DNA of 22,341 nucleotides from a virus: positions 1 through 22,341 of the IMG/VR virus record IMGVR_UViG_3300035182_001714; one strand, written 5' to 3'. Numbering within the stretch: position 1 is the stretch's first letter; every line of letters begins with the position of its first letter. Below the pieces are notes generated by a model. The model was given only the letters and a program-made list of their open reading frames with translations, had not been told where the DNA came from and ran no database searches. Made by a program: the position numbers and the translations under genes. Shown piece after piece: positions 1-16,524 of this stretch.

Positions 1-1441
1 ATGCCCGACTGGCCGCATCAACCTGGTCGTCTTTAATGCCGTTCGGAAATGCCGCCAGTTCATCCAGGAACGCAGCATTCCAGGGCGCACGAACAATTGC
101 AACATTGCCGCCGTTCACCTGGCTGGCAAACAACGATGCTCTTGTCGCTTTATCTCCAGTTTCTGGCGATGTTTCCACTTGATAGCCTGCTAGCATTTTC
201 ACGAAAGCAAGTGCCTGCGCCTTGCCTGCCTGCCCGGGATCCTGCGGAAGACTCTGGCGAACAGCAACTCCGTCTTGCTTGGCCACGTTGCGAATCGCAG
301 TTTCCACCTCATCAGGGCCGCCGCGGAAGCGCAAAACATCGAGCACTACGTAGCCACCGGTTGGCATTCTGGCCAGCTTCACTCCGACCGTCCAATCGGG
401 ATCGCGGATGCCCAGTTGCTTCGTTGCTGCAAGATCCCATCCTCGCCCCACAAGTGCGCCGCGTAGATCCGGGGCGACTTCCAATACGTCAATCTTGCCA
501 ATCTTGAATAACGAGCCTTCCGCAGTGCGTGGGCTTTGCTGGTAAAGAGCCTGCCAATCGCGCATTGCGCCCGCTTCTTGATACTCTGCGTAGGCCTTCC
601 TCAGCTCCTCGCCATAGCGGTAGGACGGGTCATCATCCCACAACCACTCACCAGGCGCGCGTCCAAGCGGATCGTTCTCCTCGGCGATGGCTGGAATACT
701 AATCACACGCCAAAGACCCTTTTGCCGATCCAGCAGGCGGCCGCCCAAGTCATCGGGGTGCCACCTCGTCATAATCACAATGATTGTCGCTTCTGGTTTC
801 AGCCGAGTTCGCAGATCGCCGACGAACCATGCCCACTGACTTTCGCGAACGACTGCGCTTTCTGCATCCGCACGACTTCTAGTCGGGTCGTCAATAATGA
901 CCAGATCTGCTCTAGTGCCGGCAATGGCAGCGCCAACACCAGCCGCGCGATAATGCCCGCCGTTCGAGGTCGTCCATTCCTCGGCTGCTTCTCTAGTCAG
1001 AGAGTAACCAAGTGTTTCCGGATGATCCCGAATTAATGCCTGCGTGCGCCGGCTGAAACCCTCCGCCATCTGTGCAGTATTACTAGCGCAGATCACATCC
1101 AAGCCGGGCCGCTGTGCAAATGCCCATGCCGCCGACAATATCGTGCCATACGTTGTCTTTGCGCTGCCCGGCGGCAAATTGATCATTAGTCGCGGTGTGC
1201 GGCCCTGAATGGCATCCTGCAACTCTCGGACCAGCAGCCGGTGGTGCGCCGCTAGCGTTTTCCCAGTGGAGGAGAGCGCTTCCATGCACCACGCCGCCAG
1301 ATCAGCGCGGCCTGGCGGGATCTTCTCCGGCAGCCCGTCGTCAATTCGGCAGAGTTCCAGGAGCACTTCGTTCGGCACTTCCCGAACAGAGGCCCCGTCT
1401 AGCCGCCTCAGCGCGGGCGATAGATGCAATGCGCCGGACAT
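1..1441 (-). CDS. terL: Phage terminase large subunit, C-terminus beyond the left edge
   Basis: This is the ATP-driven DNA packaging motor and headful nuclease. Read on the minus strand from ATG 1441, it stays open for 480 codons to the window edge. Visible signatures are a terminase-type Walker A segment NLPPGSAKTTYG (codons 86-97), the Walker B stretch LVIIDDPT, the conserved QQSPRTAEGSLFK, the start of the RNase H-like nuclease domain (GRGWDLAAT), QDPGQAGKAQA, and the late acidic motif KDDQVDA just before the edge. The ATG lies 101 nt inside the 3' end of the preceding terS-like ORF, with a weak GGTGG upstream. A GTG further in is possible, but the residues before the Walker A segment read like a normal terminase N-terminus. 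I saw no frameshift in the visible part. It is co-transcribed with the gene at 1341-1745. Confidence 0.95.
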   Translation of the reverse strand, partial: MSGALHLSPALRRLDGASVREVPNEVLLELCRIDDGLPEKIPPGRADLAAWCMEALSSTGKTLAAHHRLLVRELQDAIQGRTPRLMINLPPGSAKTTYGTILSAAWAFAQRPGLDVICASNTAQMAEGFSRRTQALIRDHPETLGYSLTREAAEEWTTSNGGHYRAAGVGAAIAGTRADLVIIDDPTRSRADAESAVVRESQWAWFVGDLRTRLKPEATIIVIMTRWHPDDLGGRLLDRQKGLWRVISIPAIAEENDPLGRAPGEWLWDDDPSYRYGEELRKAYAEYQEAGAMRDWQALYQQSPRTAEGSLFKIGKIDVLEVAPDLRGALVGRGWDLAATKQLGIRDPDWTVGVKLARMPTGGYVVLDVLRFRGGPDEVETAIRNVAKQDGVAVRQSLPQDPGQAGKAQALAFVKMLAGYQVETSPETGDKATRASLFASQVNGGNVAIVRAPWNAAFLDELAAFPNGIKDDQVDAASRA

Positions 1442-3484: not shown

Positions 3485-3946
3485 TCAATCCAGCAATTCC
3501 TCAATGCGCACCGTGGTCGCCTGTTCCTTGCGCGATGGCGCATGCTGCTGATGCACGCTCAACTCGATCCGCGCGGGGTCATCGTCCACGATGAAACTCA
3601 GACCGAGGGGGTTGCGCGCGGAGCGCATTTTTACGACGTCGAGAAGCCCTTTCGCGCTCGCCGCCAGGTTGTCAGGGTCGAGTTGCCCGGTGCTGATCCT
3701 GGTCACGGTAATGCGAGCGCGGGAGAACGGCGGCCGGGGATAGTGCTCAGGTCCGCGCATCGCAGCCATAATCTCCTGTTGGAGCACGAGCATCTGACGG
3801 CGCCGCACCGCCCAGTGCTGCCGATCCCGGACGTTGAGTGATGGCAACAGAAACGGCAACACAAAATTGATTTCGCGCGGCACAGGATCACTCATGGTTT
3901 CCGGTCCTCCATTTCCGCCAGTTTCGCTAGACTCATCAGCGCTCAT
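3485..3946 (-). CDS. rusA: RusA-family Holliday junction resolvase
   Basis: This is an endonuclease that cuts four-way DNA junctions. The 153-residue reading has the RusA layout: an N-terminal LPSLNVRDRQHWAVRRR, then the metal-binding acidic motif GQLDPDNLAASAKGLLD (residues 88-104, with Asp90 and Asp92 as the expected ligands), and a third acidic cluster VDDDPARIEL (residues 120-129). Length is slightly above the usual 120-140 because of a Gly/Ser/Glu-rich leader. ATG 3946 follows AAGGAACCGG and overlaps the end of the methyltransferase gene. A second ATG at 3895 also has a GGAGG upstream and would give a protein of more typical size. It belongs with the replication genes and probably resolves branched replication or recombination intermediates before packaging. 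Confidence 0.85.
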   Translation of the reverse strand: MSADESSETGGNGGPETMSDPVPREINFVLPFLLPSLNVRDRQHWAVRRRQMLVLQQEIMAAMRGPEHYPRPPFSRARITVTRISTGQLDPDNLAASAKGLLDVVKMRSARNPLGLSFIVDDDPARIELSVHQQHAPSRKEQATTVRIEELLD

Positions 3947-5044
3947 CCGGTTCCTTCGTATTCAATTTGCACATCATCCGCCGCTCGGCGGCGATCTCGT
4001 CATAGGCACGGCCATCACCATCAAGGACTGGCTTGCTGTCAGGATAGAGAAGCTGCCAGCGGCGCAGCGCGACGTCCACATAGACCGGCACCACTTCGAT
4101 CGCTCGGATATGCCGCCCGGTGCGCTGCCCAGCAATGATCGATGTGCCGGAGCCAGAGAACGGCTCGAAGCAGATGTCACCGGCGGCGGCATAGGCTTCC
4201 AGCACGAAGGCAGCCAGGGCCACCGGAAATACGGCCGGATGTTCGGTCTCGATGCCGCGCGCCATGTGGCGAGTGATGCGTATGACGTTGTCGGGGATGC
4301 GAGATTCTTGGATCGGCTTCCCGACATGGGCCCAGGCAACGACAGTGCCATCGGCCCTGCGCATGGCAGTGGAATGGCCGCCAGCGCGCAGATGGTGGCC
4401 TTGGCCGGCGTACTTGCAGGGCACAGTCTTGTTCGGCCTGCGCGGCGTCCGACAGAAATGGAAGACAAACTCAAAGCTCGGCGCCAGGCGGCCGTTCCAG
4501 TCGCCCGGCAGCCCGAAACCCTGATCCCATACATACCAGCCGAACCGCTTCCAGCCCCGGGTGCGCATCCATGCGATCCAGTCCCACCAGTAGGGCTGCC
4601 ATTCGCCGTCGCGATGCACGATGCCGAGATTGACCAGACCTGGCCGTCCTCAGCCATCGGCAGCACGGAAAACACACCTTGCATCAGCCGATCCCAATCG
4701 CCGACGCCGCCGCTGGCGTAATTACGCTGCTGCGCATAGGGCGGACGGGTGAAGCACAGAGCAGCGGTCTCGCCGGCCATGACTCGGGCAACATCGTCCG
4801 GGCTGGTGCTATCCCCGCAGAGCAGGCGATGCTCGCCCAGCAGCCACAGATCACCCGACCGCACCACCGGATCGGCCGCAGGCTCGAGCGCTTCATCAGC
4901 AATGCCATCACCTTCCGGTGCGGTGTCATCACTGGCCGGCTTCAGGAGGCCTGGAATCTCGGCACTGGTGAATCCGGCATGAACGGCCGGCCTTTGAGCC
5001 TGTTTCCTGGTTGGATAGATGGGGGCGCGAGTGGCGTTGGCCAT
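3936..5044 (-). pseudogene. Beta-class DNA methyltransferase split by a frameshift
   Basis: Two overlapping frames together make one SAM-dependent DNA (N4-cytosine or N6-adenine) methyltransferase. The N-terminal frame (ATG 5044 to about 4637) includes RSGDLWLLGEHRLLCGDS and the catalytic motif IV region. The C-terminal frame (about 4636 to 3936) continues with VHRDGEWQPYWWDWIAWMR, GWYVWDQGFGLPGDWNGRL, ARGIETEHPAVFPV and the SAM-binding EPFSGSGTSIIAGQRTGR. Family members continue QVLVNLG across the join; inserting one base near 4637 restores exactly that. In addition, motif IV reads TRPPYAQQRNY where the family has TSPPY or SDPPY, so a key residue is replaced by Arg. The gene follows the cytosine methyltransferase with a 4-nt gap and overlaps rusA. 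A sequencing error could explain the frameshift but would not by itself explain the Arg. Confidence 0.8.
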
Positions 5045-5048
5045 CGTT

Positions 5049-6308
5049 TCAGGTGTCGCTTTCGTTATTGGATAGCCGCGCTCGATCCGCACGCGCGCAG
5101 CCCCGGCATGCCCGTCCGTTCGGCATCGTCACCTCGTATTCGATCAATGCGATCTCGCCGCGCAGATGCTCCGCCGCTTCGTCTAGGACGGCAATCGGCC
5201 GGCGCCCAAGCGGGCTATGTTTCTGCTCCACGTAGGCCTCGATGCGGCGGCCGATCCAGCGCATCACCGGCACGGCCATGCTGTTGCCCAGAACCCGGTA
5301 ACGGGGGCCGTCGGGACAATCTGCGGCGGCCTTCCGCCGCCAGGGAATGCGTGTGTAATGATCGGGAAAGCCCTGCAGCCGTTCGCGTTCGGTCGGCGTC
5401 AACCGGCGCACAGCCGATTGGAGGACGAAAGTTTCCGTTTCGAAATCTATCCGCCCACTAGCCGAGGCGCAGGCATTCAGGGCGGTTGAGATGTCGATGG
5501 AGCCGGAGGTGTTGTTGCCTCCGAAAGCGAGGGGCAGGTCGTCGGAGCTGGAACAGCCATGGCGGCGAGAGCCGTCCGCAAGGCTTCCGGCAACGCCTTG
5601 TTCCGCTTCCCGGCACGGCGGAGAATCCCGGCGCAGGCCATCGCGCTCAAAAAGTATCGGGGTGGGATCGGCCCGGCCTCGAGCACCTGCGACAACGAAC
5701 ACACGGCGGCGGCGTTGGGCCAGGCCGAAATATTGGGCGTCGAGGACCCGCCATGCGACTGTCCGCGCGGGTCCAGACACAACACCAGCGTCCGTCCACC
5801 TTCCCCCTGGAGCGACCAGCGGACCATCTTCTCCGGCCAGTCCGCCCAGAAAACATCCGAAGGCGTTATCGCGAGTGGATAGGACACCGGAAACGTTCTC
5901 CCAAAGGATGAATGCGGGGTCGATGGCGTCGGCCAGGTCTACGAAGCGGAGCGTCAGGTTGCCGCGCGCGTCGTCGAGCGACCGCCGCTGTCCGGCGACC
6001 GAGAACGCCTGGCATGGCGTGCCGCCGACCAGCAGGTCGATCCGGCCTCGCCATTCGGCACCGTTGATGGCGGTCATGTCTCCGAGGTTGGGCGTGGCGG
6101 GATAATGGTGGGCCAGGACGGCGCAGGGGAACGGCTCGATCTCGGCAAAGAAGGCCGGCCGCCAGCCCAGCGGCGCCCACGCCACGGTGGCAGCTTCAAT
6201 GCCGCTGCACACCGACCCGTAAACCAATCCGCCATCACGATGGCAATGGCGTACAGCAGGGCTTTCTGGGGGGCGATCTCCGTCTGCGGATTTTTTGATA
6301 GTCGGCAC
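5049..6308 (-). CDS. C5-cytosine DNA methyltransferase (Dcm family)
   Basis: It transfers a methyl group from SAM to C5 of cytosine at a specific DNA site; in phages this usually protects DNA from restriction. All main motifs are present: motif I YGSVCSGIEAATVAW (residues 30-44), motif IV GGTPCQAFS with catalytic Cys99, motif VI WENVSGV (136-142), motif VIII QRRRRVF (198-204), a target-recognition region rich in Ser/Gly between about 215 and 300, and motifs IX/X with YRVLGNSMAVPVMRWIG. A tail of about 60 residues follows motif X and is poorly conserved in appearance. The GTG at 6308 gives 419 aa, but family members usually start only a few residues before motif I, so a TTG at 6227 is an alternative. 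It looks intact, unlike its neighbour. Confidence 0.92.
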   Translation of the reverse strand: MPTIKKSADGDRPPESPAVRHCHRDGGLVYGSVCSGIEAATVAWAPLGWRPAFFAEIEPFPCAVLAHHYPATPNLGDMTAINGAEWRGRIDLLVGGTPCQAFSVAGQRRSLDDARGNLTLRFVDLADAIDPAFILWENVSGVLSTRDNAFGCFLGGLAGEDGPLVAPGGRWTDAGVVSGPARTVAWRVLDAQYFGLAQRRRRVFVVAGARGRADPTPILFERDGLRRDSPPCREAEQGVAGSLADGSRRHGCSSSDDLPLAFGGNNTSGSIDISTALNACASASGRIDFETETFVLQSAVRRLTPTERERLQGFPDHYTRIPWRRKAAADCPDGPRYRVLGNSMAVPVMRWIGRRIEAYVEQKHSPLGRRPIAVLDEAAEHLRGEIALIEYEVTMPNGRACRGCARADRARLSNNESDT

Positions 6309-6569: not shown

Positions 6570-9488
6570 TTATATAGCATCTCTATCGGTATCAACATCA
6601 CTCATACTCCCTGTTCCTGCGTCTGGTAATTCTGGAGAAATGAAGCAAGACGAATATCTGCCGGTGCTGGCATCGTAGTTTAGTTCCGCACTGCTACCCT
6701 TTCTGCCCCATCGACTGAAGCGCGATTTCCAGAGATGGACCTGAGTGACCTGATCTGGTGTGTGTATTGTCAGCCCTAAATCGGCTTTGTTGCTCCAATT
6801 TGCGCTGTTGCCGCAAATAGCCATGATCCCATTGCGGCGAGTAACGTAGGCTCCGGTCGGAACGGTCAAACAGTAAATGGGGCCGACGTAATCGACTTCA
6901 CGTCTATTCCTCGGGATGACAATGACCCGTTGTGTGCGGTTGGGATGTCCAATCGTCACCTGATATCGGTCGTGATGGTGCAATTCGGCGCGGCCGGCAA
7001 AGTTGGCGGAGGCGTATCGGCCGAGTTCTATAGCCAGTCTTTGGACCTCGCCGGCGAGACGCTTGCTAGTAGTCGCATAGACGCATCCCGCCTGCCTGAT
7101 TTTATTCGGGTCATATGGTCGCTGGTGTCCGTCACCGGCAATTAGAGCATCAAAAATGATCTGCTTTGTTCGTCTGTCGAGTTGCCACACCTCTTCGGGA
7201 AGTCGTTTATTAGCCGCACCTTGGCCGCATTTTTGTATGATCCAGTCACAAAACTCCTGCGATCCCCGGCGCAATATCCGCGCACGCCACATTGGCTGCT
7301 CGTTGGGGCGCGAGGCGGGGGCAGGGGCAATGGCTTCTGTAAACGGAATGCCTAGCCTCTTGACAACACTCCGGATTTCACCATTCGCCGCCGCCGCCTG
7401 GCAGACGGCCGGCGCGTTCTGAGAAGTCCACCCCTCCGCCACAAACCACCCAACGAACGCCCACGCCGCGTCTTGATCAACAATTCCTGGAATGATCGCA
7501 TTGGAGTTCGGAGCAATCAATTGTGCCGACATTGGCATCCGGTATTTAGCGTGCTTCAAATCGCGACTTTCCGAGAACTGCCATCCTTGATGCGACCACG
7601 TATCCGGACGCCCCAGCCTTTCATGTCCTGACGCTTTGCCGGGCCGATCCCACGCAGCTTGCAATAGCATTCGGTGGTTTGGTGTCACTAACAGATCAAG
7701 ACTATATCCTACGTAGTGGTGCATAGGTCCCGAGTAATTATACTTGTGCACCACACTCGGGCGTTGATAAGATAGGACGTTCTGAGTTGGATCAAAGCAG
7801 CACACTTGATCATCAAGTGTCACGTCTTTATGCGGCAACCATCCTCTCTGCGTCAATACTTCTGTATCGGAGGAATAGCAGCCCGCGATGTCATATGGTC
7901 CGGGCGGCCCGAGCTTGTCCCCGCTTTTCGGCGGCTGCATTTTGGCCGGGTGGACCACAACCCACACATTGCAGCCGTGGCGCTGCGCGAACGAGCGGAG
8001 CCGTTGCAATGACCGGCCGATATAGTCCGTCTCCGATAGAAGGCCGCGCTGGTGCTCGATCTCATTCCACGGATCGATCAGCAAATCGGTGGTGCCAAAT
8101 CGAAGCACGCACGCTTGTGCTCGTTCTAATATCCAATCGAGCGTCGGCGCGACGTCCTCAGCATCCGATGCCAGAAATGACATGCGGCCATGCAGCCAGT
8201 CGCCAGCCTGCACGCGTTCTTCTCTGCTCATCAATTGAGTTCCTGCCGGAACGTGTCTGCCTGGCAACGCCGGCTTTCCGACCAGGACTTGCGCGCATTG
8301 GATGGCAAATGCCTGCCACGGCTGCATTTCCGGCGAGAACACCAGCCACCGACGCGCGTGCTGGCGCATCAGGTGGACCATCAGAAATACCGTCCAGACC
8401 GATTTTCCAGCATTCGGCAAACCGGTGACGACGATCAGTCTTCCCTCGCCTGGTATTTTCAGAATATTGTCAGTTGCGGCAGCGCCAGTGGATAGGACCT
8501 CAGGGGCCGGCAGCTGTAGGAATTCGTCTAGTGCGGCCCCAGTTACGTCCTGCACGCCGTCAATCGGGTATGGCCGCGCCGCCTCGATGCAGTCGCGCAC
8601 TGCCGCCGGACCGCGCGTCCGCAGCACATCGTTGGCATCCTTGCAGCCTTCCGGCCAAGCCACGAGCCAACAGCGGTGCTTGCCTAAACGCCGAGCAAGC
8701 TCCTCCCGCAGGACCATGCCAGGCTCGTCCTGATCTCCGGCCAGGACAAATTTCCCCACCGATTCCAACAGTTCCGCATGCGTTGCCAGCGCCGCGAACC
8801 GCCTGTCTGTTTCGCGCCTCGGATCGTCCTCGTTCCGCAGCTCAGCCGGGGCGCCGTCTTTCAGGCTCACAGTCTGCGGATAGCCCGCCTCGTGGAGAGC
8901 CATCACGTCGAGTTCGCCCTCAACCCAACACACCACGTCCGGCGACGTGATGGCATCGACGTTGAACAGGGTCGGCAGCGCGTCCGGCTCCTGCATCATC
9001 GGATTCTTCTCGGGCGGCCGATATTTCCGGTTCACCACCTCGCCGTGGTAACGGTAGGGGAACACCAGCGCCAGCCGCTCGCCGAGTCCTGGAAACTTCT
9101 TCCTGATCAAGTAACATCCGAACGCATCGACTGTTTCGGCGCTGATGCCACGAGATGCAAACCAGTCATACATCTGCGCCGGGCGAGAAATCACTTCCGG
9201 TGCATGTTCAACCGGCCGGCGAGGTTCGCGTATTTGTTTCCTGGTAAACGGAACCACTCGGCCATCAGTCGATCGTAACTTGCCACCCGATGACCACCCG
9301 CACTTGGCGCGGTGGCACTGCCAGACGGCACCCTCCCCGTCCTCGTCGATCGTCAGCGACAGCGACGCCTCCCGTGTATGGCCGCCGCCACATTTTGGGC
9401 AGATTAGCTTTTCGGTATGGCCAGGACGAAATGATTTCGGGCGAATGCCGTTTTCTGCCAGCAGATCCGGTAGGCTATTCGCGCTCAT
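6570..9488 (-). CDS. Primase-helicase (T7 gp4/Twinkle type) interrupted by an intein
   Basis: This is a replicative DNA helicase with a primase-like N-terminus. Residues 30-63 hold a C4 zinc site (C30, C33, C58, C63). A Toprim-type region follows (VCWVEGELDVMALHEAG at 186-202, KFVLAGDQDEPGM at 246-258). The RecA-like helicase domain has Walker A TGLPNAGKSVWT (355-366), Walker B LLIDPWNEIEH (469-479) and an H3-like VWVVVHPAKM (508-517). Between PYDIAG (531-536) and SANWSNKAD (895-903) the reading is broken by 358 residues of intein; joining the flanks restores the family's DISGSANW-like motif, so the mature protein would be 614 aa. The start at 9488 has GGGAG upstream and follows the replication-initiator gene by two bases. 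It should unwind DNA at the fork; primase activity is plausible but not proven. Confidence 0.93.
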   Translation of the reverse strand: MSANSLPDLLAENGIRPKSFRPGHTEKLICPKCGGGHTREASLSLTIDEDGEGAVWQCHRAKCGWSSGGKLRSTDGRVVPFTRKQIREPRRPVEHAPEVISRPAQMYDWFASRGISAETVDAFGCYLIRKKFPGLGERLALVFPYRYHGEVVNRKYRPPEKNPMMQEPDALPTLFNVDAITSPDVVCWVEGELDVMALHEAGYPQTVSLKDGAPAELRNEDDPRRETDRRFAALATHAELLESVGKFVLAGDQDEPGMVLREELARRLGKHRCWLVAWPEGCKDANDVLRTRGPAAVRDCIEAARPYPIDGVQDVTGAALDEFLQLPAPEVLSTGAAATDNILKIPGEGRLIVVTGLPNAGKSVWTVFLMVHLMRQHARRWLVFSPEMQPWQAFAIQCAQVLVGKPALPGRHVPAGTQLMSREERVQAGDWLHGRMSFLASDAEDVAPTLDWILERAQACVLRFGTTDLLIDPWNEIEHQRGLLSETDYIGRSLQRLRSFAQRHGCNVWVVVHPAKMQPPKSGDKLGPPGPYDIAGCYSSDTEVLTQRGWLPHKDVTLDDQVCCFDPTQNVLSYQRPSVVHKYNYSGPMHHYVGYSLDLLVTPNHRMLLQAAWDRPGKASGHERLGRPDTWSHQGWQFSESRDLKHAKYRMPMSAQLIAPNSNAIIPGIVDQDAAWAFVGWFVAEGWTSQNAPAVCQAAAANGEIRSVVKRLGIPFTEAIAPAPASRPNEQPMWRARILRRGSQEFCDWIIQKCGQGAANKRLPEEVWQLDRRTKQIIFDALIAGDGHQRPYDPNKIRQAGCVYATTSKRLAGEVQRLAIELGRYASANFAGRAELHHHDRYQVTIGHPNRTQRVIVIPRNRREVDYVGPIYCLTVPTGAYVTRRNGIMAICGNSANWSNKADLGLTIHTPDQVTQVHLWKSRFSRWGRKGSSAELNYDASTGRYSSCFISPELPDAGTGSMSDVDTDRDAI
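6807..7880 (-). other. Intein with LAGLIDADG homing endonuclease, 358 aa
   Basis: The intein begins at Cys537 of the precursor (block A CYSSDTEVLTQRGW) and ends at Asn894, followed by Ser+1. Block B is LLVTPNHRM, with the TxxH signature at intein residues 66-69. Two LAGLIDADG-like helices are visible, FVGWFVAEG (142-150) and IFDALIAGDG (242-251), each keeping its acidic residue, so the endonuclease may be active. Block F is GPIYCLTVPTGAYVTRRNG. Block G reads IMAICGN/S: the terminal Asn and the Ser nucleophile are present, but the usual penultimate His is Gly. The insertion point is a conserved helicase motif, the typical position for an intein that homes into an essential site. Confidence 0.93.
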
Positions 9489-9490
9489 GA

Positions 9491-10366
9491 TCAGAGGCTC
9501 CCGTGGATACGTTGAATGTTCGTCCCCGGATAGACGTTCGCCTGCACCTCTGGATTGGTGCGGTTCCTGTAATTACCCTCACGAATTTTTAAGGCATTTT
9601 CTGGTTTTATGCACCAATCCAGGCAGCACGGAAACTTGCCGCTCGTCAAAAATGTGCTGTCTGCAATCTCTTGGCAGAACCCACGCCACCCTTCGATGCC
9701 GCCTAGATCGGCGATCAGCTTTCGCATTCGGGTTTGCCTGGCGTCTGTCATTCCGCGTGCTTTTGGCAGCTTGTTGGCGACGGTTTCATTCCACACTGCC
9801 AGCGCTCTGTCAACCAGGCTGGGCATGCTGGAGACCGAACATTCTGCGATTCGCTTAGGTGACGTGCTGTCATCTTTCTTCTTTGGTGTACTTTCTTCTT
9901 TCTGGACTATGGACTCTGGACTATGGACTGCTTGAGGTTCGAATGGCAGCAAGTCATTGATTTTGGCCGATTCGGGCGATTTTAACGAGGCGTTTTTCGC
10001 GCGTTTTTCGCGCGTTTTTCGCGCGTTTTTCGTTCGTTTTTGCCCTCCTGCGGAACCCGCTGAGGACAGGATTCCGTGCTCGATGCCGGCTTTGGTCAGC
10101 TCCTGCTCTGCCCGTCCGTTCGTCAGGCAGCCATCCACGAGCCGCAGCTTGCCGGCGGCGATTAGCCGGTCTCGGATTGCCCGCCAGCGGCGAGGACCGC
10201 ACCCGCAAACTTTGGCCAGCTTCGATGCGTCGTTGTCGATTGGGCCGCCGCGCATATAGATCAAATCCAGCAGGACGATGTAAACGCCCTTTTCTTCGGC
10301 GGTTAGAGTGCTCGTCCCGGCAATAAAATCACTCGGGAAGTGCTTGTAGTAGGGCCGGGCGCTCAT
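9491..10366 (-). CDS. DUF1376-type phage replication protein
   Basis: This is probably the replication initiator or helicase-loading partner of the next gene. The N-terminus (RPYYKHFPSDFIAGTSTLTA, then EEKGVYIVLLDLIYMRGGPI, about residues 4-43) is the DUF1376/YdaU domain of phage and prophage replication genes; a winged-helix-like stretch follows (LAKVCGCGPRRWRAIRDRLI). The middle (about 105-175) is a low-complexity Lys/Arg/Ser/Glu linker whose DNA is an array of 11-bp repeats. The C-terminus (VDRALAVWNETVANKLPKAR to FPCCLDWCIKPENALKIREG) is like the end of phage O/DnaT-type proteins. A strong GGAGG precedes ATG 10366. The operon order initiator then helicase and the repeats inside the gene resemble lambda O. 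Confidence 0.82.
   Translation of the reverse strand: MSARPYYKHFPSDFIAGTSTLTAEEKGVYIVLLDLIYMRGGPIDNDASKLAKVCGCGPRRWRAIRDRLIAAGKLRLVDGCLTNGRAEQELTKAGIEHGILSSAGSAGGQKRTKNARKTREKRAKNASLKSPESAKINDLLPFEPQAVHSPESIVQKEESTPKKKDDSTSPKRIAECSVSSMPSLVDRALAVWNETVANKLPKARGMTDARQTRMRKLIADLGGIEGWRGFCQEIADSTFLTSGKFPCCLDWCIKPENALKIREGNYRNRTNPEVQANVYPGTNIQRIHGSL
9901..9928. repeat. Perfect tandem 14-bp repeat
   Basis: TCTGGACTATGGAC occurs twice back to back (9901-9914 and 9915-9928) inside the replication gene, next to a pyrimidine-rich tract (about 9869-9900). Because 14 is not a multiple of three, the copies encode different residues, so selection seems to act on the DNA rather than on the peptide. Confidence 0.8.
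9990..10044. repeat. Iteron-like array of 11-bp units; candidate replication origin
   Basis: Three perfect tandem copies of GCGTTTTTCGC (9990-10000, 10001-10011, 10012-10022) are followed by a copy with one mismatch (10023-10033) and a decayed copy (10034-10044). Each unit has GCG/CGC dyad ends around T5 and is one helical turn long, so a bound protein would sit on one face. The array is inside the putative initiator gene, as lambda's origin lies inside O. Confidence 0.7.
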
Positions 10367-14237: not shown

Positions 14238-15607
14238 CTAGCACATACACTGAGTTTCTGATGCGCAAGATACCGCGCGTGCAAGCCCACGGGATTGAAC
14301 CCGAAGCGATGCCATCGCATCTGTTTGATTTTCAGGCTGAGGTGTGTCGGTTCCTGCTGCGCGCCGGTCGTGGCGCTGAGTTTCTCGGCACGGGGCTTGG
14401 GAAATCCCTTATTCAGATCGAGTGGTGCCGACAGGCGGCCGAGGCAACAAATGGCCGGGCGCTGATCCTGACGCCGCTCGCCGTTGCCCGCCAGATGGAG
14501 CGCGAGGCGCATAGGTTTGGCTATACGGCACAAGTTATTCGGTCGCAGGACGATGTGGCGGAAGGAATTAATATTTGCAACTACGAGCGATTGGATGGGT
14601 TGAATCCTCATTCATTCGGCGCCGTGAGCTTGGATGAAAGCAGCATTATCAAGAATTTCACCGGAGCCACGACGCGCAAGCTGATCGATATGTTTTCCGA
14701 TCATCGTTTCCGGCTCTGCAATACCGCGACGCCGGCGCCGAATGATCATATGGAACTCGGCACGCATTCAGAGTTTTTGGGTCTGATGCGGTCGGTGGAA
14801 ATGCTATCCAGGTGGTTTATCAATGATACGTCTGTAGCCTCGCAGACGTGGCGGCTCAAGGGGCACGCTGTGGATGCGTTCTGGGATTGGGTGGCGAGTT
14901 GGGCGAGATGCGCCGACAGCCCGGCCGATCTTGGTTTTGACGGCTCCCGGTTCACTTTGCCGCCGTTGAAGGTGTACAAGCACAGGGTGGCGGCTGAAGC
15001 GAAGGCGATGAAGGGCACCCTATTTGCGGGTGACGTCAACGCCACGGATATGCACGCCGTCAAACGCGAAACTGCCGATGCCAGGGCGCGGTTGATTGCT
15101 GATCTGGTTAGCGCTGAACCCGACGAGCCGTGGTTATTGTGGTGTGATAGCGATGCCGAGGCAGATGCGTTAATGACCGCCATCCCCTCGGCGGTCGAGA
15201 TACGTGGTTCTCACTCGCTGGATCGTAAAGAGGCTGCCCTTGACGATTTTACTACTGGCAGGAAGCGGTATCTTGTGAGCAAGCCTTCGATTTGCGGATT
15301 TGGAGCCAATTTCCAGCACTGCGCACGCCAGGCATTCATTGGCCGGTCGTTCAGTTATGAGGCCTGGTATCAGGCCGTTCGGAGGTGCTGGCGGTTCGGC
15401 CAAAAGCGGCCGGTGCACGTTCATCTCGCCGTTGCCGAGGGTGAGGATCAGATCGGGCGTGTAATTGACCGCAAGGCGGAAGGCCACGCGGCGATGAAAG
15501 TCGCAATGGCGGCCGCTATGTTGCGGTCGCGTGAAACTGCGGCGCAGGCGATGGTGCCGTATAGTGCCACACACAAGGGAGAGTTGCCGTCATGGTTGAC
15601 TGTATGA
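14234..15607 (+). CDS. SNF2/DEAD-like phage helicase
   Basis: This is a superfamily 2 ATP-driven DNA translocase. Motifs in order: Q-like DFQAEVCRFLLRAGRGAEF, Walker A LGTGLGKS (51-58), motif Ia LILTPLAVARQMERE (77-91), DEAH-box variant DESS (134-137), motif III TATPAPND (164-171), and motif VI QAVRRCWRFGQ (380-390). The length of 457 aa is typical of compact phage SNF2 helicases without an added nuclease. It overlaps the upstream 18-codon ORF and overlaps the next methyltransferase by 16 nt, so all three are translated as a block. Likely roles are fork remodelling or replication restart. Restriction or defence links are possible because helicase and methyltransferase are neighbours, but no endonuclease is seen. 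Confidence 0.88.
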   Translation: MTSTYTEFLMRKIPRVQAHGIEPEAMPSHLFDFQAEVCRFLLRAGRGAEFLGTGLGKSLIQIEWCRQAAEATNGRALILTPLAVARQMEREAHRFGYTAQVIRSQDDVAEGINICNYERLDGLNPHSFGAVSLDESSIIKNFTGATTRKLIDMFSDHRFRLCNTATPAPNDHMELGTHSEFLGLMRSVEMLSRWFINDTSVASQTWRLKGHAVDAFWDWVASWARCADSPADLGFDGSRFTLPPLKVYKHRVAAEAKAMKGTLFAGDVNATDMHAVKRETADARARLIADLVSAEPDEPWLLWCDSDAEADALMTAIPSAVEIRGSHSLDRKEAALDDFTTGRKRYLVSKPSICGFGANFQHCARQAFIGRSFSYEAWYQAVRRCWRFGQKRPVHVHLAVAEGEDQIGRVIDRKAEGHAAMKVAMAAAMLRSRETAAQAMVPYSATHKGELPSWLTV

Positions 15608-16524
15608 ATTCATCAGCCGGGAAACGGTGGTGTGCTTACAACGGAGACAGCGGCATGATCATGCCGCAGTTGCCTGATGGATGCGTTGACTTCTCCATAT
15701 ACTCGCCTCCTTTCGGGGATTTGTTCGTATACAGCGACAGCGCCAACGACCTAGGCAACAATGCCTCTGACGATGATTTTTTCGAGCAATACGGGTTCAT
15801 CATTCGTGAGAAACTGCGGCTCACGAAGCCCGGACGGCTAACGGCGGTTCACTGTTCTGATCTGCCGACCCGTAAATGGAAAGATGGATATATCGGGAGC
15901 AAGCCGTTCAGCGACAACATCACGGCGGCTCATATTGATGCCGGATGGCATTTTGTGCGGCGAGTGACGATCTGGCGTGATCCCGTGGTGGAAATGACGC
16001 GCACGAAAGCCCTGAGTTTGCTCCATAAACAAATCTTGAAGGACAGCACATGCTCGTGGCCAGGCACGCCGGATTACTTGCTGCTGTTTCGCAAGCCGGG
16101 CGACAATTTAGAGCCGGTGGGGCACAAACCGGCAGACTTCCCGGTTGAGCTGTGGCAGAAATGGGCATCGCCGGTATGGATGGATATCAATCAGACCGAC
16201 GTGCTGAACAATAAGGCATCGGCGCAGAGGTGGATTGGCGATCCCGTCAGCCTGGCGGGGGCGGCCGAGGATGCCGATGAACGGCATCTGTGCCCGTTGC
16301 AACTGCAACTCATCGAGCGCGCCATGACGCTGTGGAGCAACCCCGGAGACGTGGTGCTATCGCCGTTTCTTGGCATTGGCAGCGAGGGCGTTGTCGCTAT
16401 GCGGAGAGGGCGCAAGTTTATTGGAATCGAGCTGAAAGGCTCGTATTACCGGACCGCGATACGCGCCCTTGAAGCGGCCGAACGGAACGCAGTAGACCTG
16501 CTGCATATATCCAATGCCGACTGA
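15592..16524 (+). CDS. Beta-class DNA methyltransferase (N4-cytosine or N6-adenine)
   Basis: This is a SAM-dependent DNA methyltransferase with the beta-class motif order. Motif IV DFSIYSPPFGDL (catalytic SPPF at residues 38-41) comes first, then a target-recognition region, then motif X CPLQLQLIERAMTLWSNPGD (234-253) and the SAM-binding motif I VVLSPFLGIGSEGVVAMRRG (254-273), followed by KFIGIELKGSYY. SPPF is more usual for N4-cytosine enzymes, but the base cannot be fixed from sequence. Unlike the copy at 3936-5044, it looks intact. ATG 15592 overlaps the helicase end; the ATG four codons later (MNSSAG) is an alternative. It probably protects phage DNA from restriction, together with the cytosine methyltransferase. 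Confidence 0.87.
   Translation: MVDCMNSSAGKRWCAYNGDSGMIMPQLPDGCVDFSIYSPPFGDLFVYSDSANDLGNNASDDDFFEQYGFIIREKLRLTKPGRLTAVHCSDLPTRKWKDGYIGSKPFSDNITAAHIDAGWHFVRRVTIWRDPVVEMTRTKALSLLHKQILKDSTCSWPGTPDYLLLFRKPGDNLEPVGHKPADFPVELWQKWASPVWMDINQTDVLNNKASAQRWIGDPVSLAGAAEDADERHLCPLQLQLIERAMTLWSNPGDVVLSPFLGIGSEGVVAMRRGRKFIGIELKGSYYRTAIRALEAAERNAVDLLHISNAD

Follow-up and report, generated by a model that had tools for sequence, protein, structure and literature searches.

Class 1 inteins of mycobacteriophages often lack the histidine that usually precedes the terminal asparagine (Kelley et al. 2016, PMC5050341), and exceptions to this residue that nevertheless splice are known (PMC5050341, PMC7664689). The RDF intein of Bethlehem gp51, which has a penultimate Gly, splices completely; its G316H variant needs more than 5 h to reach about half-completion (PMC5050341). 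The AceL NrdHF intein (PDB 6zgq) also ends in Gly-Asn and depends on the Cys at its block position F:4 (PMC7891396). It splices fast despite the Gly, using Arg69 (position N3:11), which lies at hydrogen-bond distance from the C-scissile carbonyl; the R69A substitution slows splicing and G145H abolishes activity, the Arg being a partial substitute (PMC7891396). Motif H4 of DnaB helicases is a classical site of intein insertion, occupied for example by DnaBi2 of M. smegmatis (PMC6195587).

The DNA analyzed here, a virus record of 22,341 bases that we refer to as the window, was proposed in a preliminary description to carry a homing-type intein in a phage primase-helicase. Our results agree. The window very probably encodes an active HINT and LAGLIDADG intein in motif H4 of a gp4/Twinkle-like helicase, belonging to a widespread, mainly phage family with Cys1 and a Gly-Asn end, which would splice by the class 1 route and home. 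The observations behind this reading are the anatomy of the element, its predicted fold, the precise interruption of a conserved site, conservation across the family, a lineage that follows its site, and a pair of occupied and empty alleles. From these we infer splicing and DNA cleavage by the window intein and a role for its Arg70.

Anatomy of the intein and its host gene

The features of the locus are given below. Residue counts refer either to 127 distinct related inteins or to the 82-member set used for per-position counts; because the sequences most like the query were kept, both describe the Gly family and not inteins in general.

6570–9488, minus strand: precursor open reading frame, primase-helicase plus intein, 972 aa (open frame; phrog_239; Pfam Toprim and AAA_25)
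7881–9488, minus strand: N-extein, 536 aa, with a zinc ribbon-like start, toprim, and RecA-fold helicase with Walker A (T7 gp4, 6e-44 with the family profile)
6807–7880, minus strand: intein, 358 aa, a HINT splicing domain interrupted by the LAGLIDADG endonuclease (motifs, AlphaFold, Foldseek)
7878–7880, minus strand: Cys1 codon (A:1), invariant in the 127 relatives
7668–7685, minus strand: block B / N3 motif TPNHRM (residues 66–71) with Thr66, His69 and Arg70 (N3:11), the candidate stand-in for the penultimate His (sequence; Arg69 of AceL NrdHF, PMC7891396)
7422–7457, minus strand: first LAGLIDADG helix FVGWFVAEGWTS (FVGWFVAEG), acid Glu149 (sequence; helix in the model)
7206–7208, minus strand: Lys225 in a block D-like NKRLP endonuclease motif (Lys in 75/82)
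7122–7154, minus strand: second LAGLIDADG helix FDALIAGDGHQ, acid Asp250 (sequence; Asp in 80/82)
6870–6872, minus strand: Cys337 in IYCLTVP, block F:4, the class 3 nucleophile position (Cys in 80/82 and 124/127)
6834–6839, minus strand: Arg348-Arg349 pair of block F, a family signature (80/82 and 79/82)
6807–6812, minus strand: penultimate Gly357 and terminal Asn358 (Gly 124/127, Asn 124/127)
6804–6806, minus strand: Ser+1 codon, C-extein nucleophile (sequence)
6570–6806, minus strand: C-extein, 78 aa plus stop, first residue Ser+1 (SANWSNKAD), joined directly to the N-extein in relatives

The precursor frame contains no internal stops, and the intein occupies its residues 537–894 (window 7880 to 6807). 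With a slash marking each junction, the N side reads DIAG/CYSSDTEVLT and the C side GIMAICGN/SANWSNKAD, and ligation of the exteins in silico gives a protein of 614 aa. The boundaries proposed in the preliminary description, together with the sizes of the intein and of the joined product, are therefore exact. A second contig (L001) matches the window without any difference from about position 10240 down to 1807. This identity over 8.4 kb excludes a one-off assembly error for the element; for the same reason L001 represents the same phage and was rejected as an independent carrier.

The precursor matches the PHROGs phage DNA primase/helicase family phrog_239 (E 8e-69), and Pfam places Toprim and AAA_25 domains in it. 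A profile built from intein-less relatives (n=20) matches T7 gp4 (6e-44), Twinkle (6e-18) and DnaB structures. By this combination of a Toprim domain with a RecA-fold hexameric helicase, the host protein is a T7 gp4/Twinkle-like primase-helicase, as had been claimed for it. In the family alignment, the site sequence DISG/SAHW falls without gaps over DLRG/SGAL of T7, and on this alignment we place the insertion site in motif H4, a DNA-binding loop. The third-position GC content of the C-extein (0.44; 6570–6806, minus strand) is lower than that of the N-extein (0.69) and the intein (0.57), a difference that comes from only 79 codons and may be due to chance.

Relatives, fold and known systems

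The comparison with known inteins suggested in the preliminary description returned phage relatives as well as solved structures. By tblastn, phage inteins matched mostly over their full length, with E values down to 1e-28 and about 22–32% identity over long matches; their host genes encode NrdA, NrdB, ThyX, TerL, DNA polymerase, nucleotidyltransferase and methylases. A profile of 11 inteins matched solved inteins and homing endonucleases, including 6zgq (1.7e-12) and 2cw7 (2.6e-12), and an alignment of seven inteins served for the profile search of contigs. The AlphaFold model, for which an alignment of 61 sequences was the input, has a pLDDT of 92.5 and a pTM of 0.91 and contains the HINT fold as well as two long helices, each terminating in its acidic residue (Glu149 and Asp250). 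With Foldseek, the whole length matched the TliVMA intein (E 2.9e-16), PI-SceI and PI-PkoII; the splicing part matched AceL NrdHF, and the endonuclease matched I-DmoI, I-SceI and PI-SceI. In Pfam and NCBIfam no dedicated intein model matched; LAGLIDADG_3 stayed below the cutoff, and full-length models that contain inteins matched weakly.

Among described systems, the Bethlehem gp51 RDF intein, compared by its published description, resembles the window intein in being a phage intein with Cys1, an endonuclease and a penultimate Gly, and differs in its host gene. AceL NrdHF, whose splicing domain is the best match in sequence and a close one in fold, shares the PNHRM string, the F:4 Cys, the absence of both usual histidines and the Gly-Asn end (PMC7891396), whereas it is split, lacks an endonuclease, begins with Ala1 and is class 3 by experiment. 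The H4 inteins of DnaB (M. smegmatis DnaBi2; Ssp DnaB, PDB 1mi8/6frh) are class 1 and sit in the same DNA-binding loop of a RecA-fold helicase. Ssp DnaB, however, has a penultimate His and an F:4 Asp, and a gapless motif comparison would put its junction, LRESG/SIEQD, two residues further along; the two sites thus appear to have the loop in common but not the exact junction. The VMA inteins TliVMA and PI-SceI share the whole-length fold, HINT plus LAGLIDADG, but with 10–14% identity and in other hosts and sites. Since the large Gly family is already partly described, the window intein adds a good new example to a known kind.

Occupancy of the insertion site

The helicase scan, from which the best 80 loci were kept, showed that 78 of them cross the site without an insert; the other two are the window's own phage (L003) and one further carrier (L011), which corresponds to an occupancy of about 2% of this sample. 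The continuity of these relatives bears out the earlier statement that joining the flanks restores a conserved DIAG-SANW motif. In the intein searches, L095/L096, L097, L098, L099, L179, L201, L204, L205 and L206 also proved to carry an intein at this junction, so that, counting L011, related inteins occupy the exact site in ten distinct gp4-like helicases besides that of the window. L179 is a Desulfohalobiaceae MAG whose protein at this locus is identical to that of a viral contig (L200). The site is therefore occupied rarely yet repeatedly. The impression that inteins at this motif are uncommon holds for their frequency among the best helicase loci (two of 80, one being the same phage), but not for the number of occupied helicases. 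The suggested comparison of helicase insertion points shows reuse of the exact site in gp4-like helicases; in DnaB the loop is shared and the junction appears to differ.

Three more inteins (L100, L102 and L202) interrupt other replication ATPases at G/S; two of these hosts (L100 and L202) match helicase or primase weakly, and L102 has no such match. Together with the gp4-site inteins they form one clade (support 99 in one tree and 96/93 in another), while a clade of gp4-site inteins alone is unsupported either way in the trees. A single intein lineage thus appears, from these trees, to follow its target loop.

One of the occupied gp4-like helicases (L206) carries two inteins: a class 3 intein with Ala1, the WCT triad and a penultimate His at the Walker A motif HGK/SS, and one of the Gly-Asn type at motif H4 (L206:1456-2511 and L206:3001-4053). 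This layout mirrors that of the two DnaB inteins of M. smegmatis.

The penultimate glycine

The preliminary description correctly noted Gly where most inteins have a penultimate His, a residue that is usual but not obligatory in class 1; as a refinement, the Gly is not peculiar to this intein. In the 127 related inteins, which represent the Gly family, Cys1 is invariant (127/127), and Gly is penultimate in 124, Cys occupies F:4 in 124 and the Arg-Arg pair of block F is present in 120. The searches that produced this set relied on conserved N-terminal strings and never on block G; for one set, a string from block F with the F:4 Cys in it was used as well. By these counts Gly357 is the family norm and not a lesion. 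Since a phage intein with a native Gly splices completely and Gly is the norm of the family, impaired splicing is not predicted.

The PNHRM string common to the window intein and AceL NrdHF makes Arg70 the best candidate for the substitute in the window's lineage, by analogy with Arg69. All inteins at the same site have Arg at N3:11 except L205, which has Gln. As a universal compensator of the family Arg70 was rejected, because Arg occupies N3:11 in only 40 of the 82 members; a compensator acting family-wide must be a different one, which might be, for instance, the Arg348-Arg349 pair.

Splicing class and alternative readings

By the usual definitions, the residues of the window intein assign it to class 1: Cys1 is present, block B has the TxxH motif (TPNH, residues 66–69), Asn358 is followed by Ser+1, and the WCT triad of class 3 is absent. 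Class 3 inteins have no nucleophile at position 1, and of the triad positions (B:12, F:4 and G:5), which are here Met71, Cys337 and Cys356, the F:4 Cys alone matches. A class 3-like or dual-nucleophile route, in which splicing starts at Cys337, either replacing Cys1 or in relay with it, as in AceL NrdHF without Cys1, is unlikely in our estimation. Cys337 is conserved almost like Cys1 (124/127 against 127/127), and among solved relatives the best match is to a class 3 intein, which has PNHRM, the F:4 Cys and Gly-Asn in common with the window intein and depends on that Cys (PMC7891396). However, Cys1 would be unneeded in a pure class 3 route and is nevertheless invariant, the triad is incomplete, and Cys is the second commonest residue at F:4 among inteins generally (PMC4031507), so that Cys337 need not be a nucleophile. 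We give a similarly low probability to the idea that a family with both initiating cysteines and Gly-Asn represents a two-cysteine state, with a Cys1-Cys337-Ser+1 relay, from which class 3 arose a second time in AceL NrdHF. In the plain tree of splicing domains AceL NrdHF falls within the Gly family (98/96); once position 1, F:4 and the three C-terminal residues are masked, it joins the long Ssp DnaB branch. On the masked data, the AU test gives p values of 0.22 for AceL with the WCT inteins and 0.37 for AceL with the Gly family. Because the grouping with the Gly family is lost on masking, we make no claim that class 3 originated twice.

The missing His, taken in isolation, might also indicate a decayed intein that has lost splicing or homing and left the helicase gene inactive. 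This is very improbable, since the frame is open, every catalytic position has the family consensus residue, and the Gly is both the family norm and functional in the inteins tested (PMC5050341, PMC7891396). We attach almost no credence to an ordinary helicase domain that is retained and never spliced: the open reading frame fits it, and nothing more does, whereas most relatives lack the insert and have the conserved motif uninterrupted, homologues lie in unrelated proteins (NrdA, NrdB, ThyX, TerL, DNA polymerase and methylases), and the intein motifs are complete at both ends.

The interest of the class 1 intein lies in the family pattern and a cheap mutational test rather than in the presence of an intein. 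The odd Gly proves to be a family trait, not damage, and a replicative-helicase loop in uncultivated phages is added as a place repeatedly occupied by one intein lineage. The family offers a clean test system for Asn cyclization without a penultimate His and for whether class 3 splicing originated more than once from two-cysteine ancestors, and its Gly-ending inteins may serve as splicing tools.

Proposed course of splicing and possible signs of homing

In the class 1 route that we propose, the N-extein would move to a thioester on Cys1, helped by Thr66 and His69, and would then be transferred to Ser+1. Cyclization of Asn358 would release the C-extein, and an O-to-N shift would yield the joined helicase of 614 aa. 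The altered active site of the family would offset the missing penultimate His, with Arg70 (N3:11) as the candidate in the window's lineage. The free intein would cut intein-less alleles at their DIxG/S codons, and repair would copy the intein in.

One pair of alleles bears on homing. Next to the junction, over about 300 nt of the N side and 200 nt of the C side, the occupied L011 and the empty L009 are near-identical; farther upstream they are about 77–93% identical. The pair suggests recent homing. Directly before the insertion point, a tract of 16 nt contains 8 synonymous differences (L009:2100-2115 against L011:4542-4557). Short co-conversion during homing from a different donor would leave a tract of this kind; alternatively, allele lineages may have recombined. 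In the 80-locus helicase scan, no empty allele exceeded 57% amino-acid identity to the helicase of the window, so homing of the window's own copy is a prediction.

Other observations on the family and the phage

Three relatives at one site with FNSQSHIANV-like sequence (L137, L158 and L160) apparently terminate in Gln where Asn is usual, with GQ or SQ ahead of Ser. Related Gly-Asn inteins occupy the conserved junction KANIQA/TL in L180, L182-L185, L187 and L190; these contigs are binned as Woesearchaeota, Pacearchaeota and other archaea, and the family is thus not limited to bacterial phages.

Elsewhere in the window, a DNA methylase gene (N6_N4_Mtase; 3936–5092, minus strand) seems split into two overlapping frames (3974–5092 and 3936–4619), an arrangement that is identical in L001 and may represent a frameshift, programmed or in a decayed gene. 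Further DNA methylases (C5, N6_N4) are encoded at 5049–6308 (minus strand) and 15592–16524 (plus strand), giving the phage several methyltransferase genes. The large terminase (2–1441, minus strand) is closest to that of Acetobacter phage phiAO1, with 47% identity, a hint that the phage infects an acetic acid bacterium or a relative of one.
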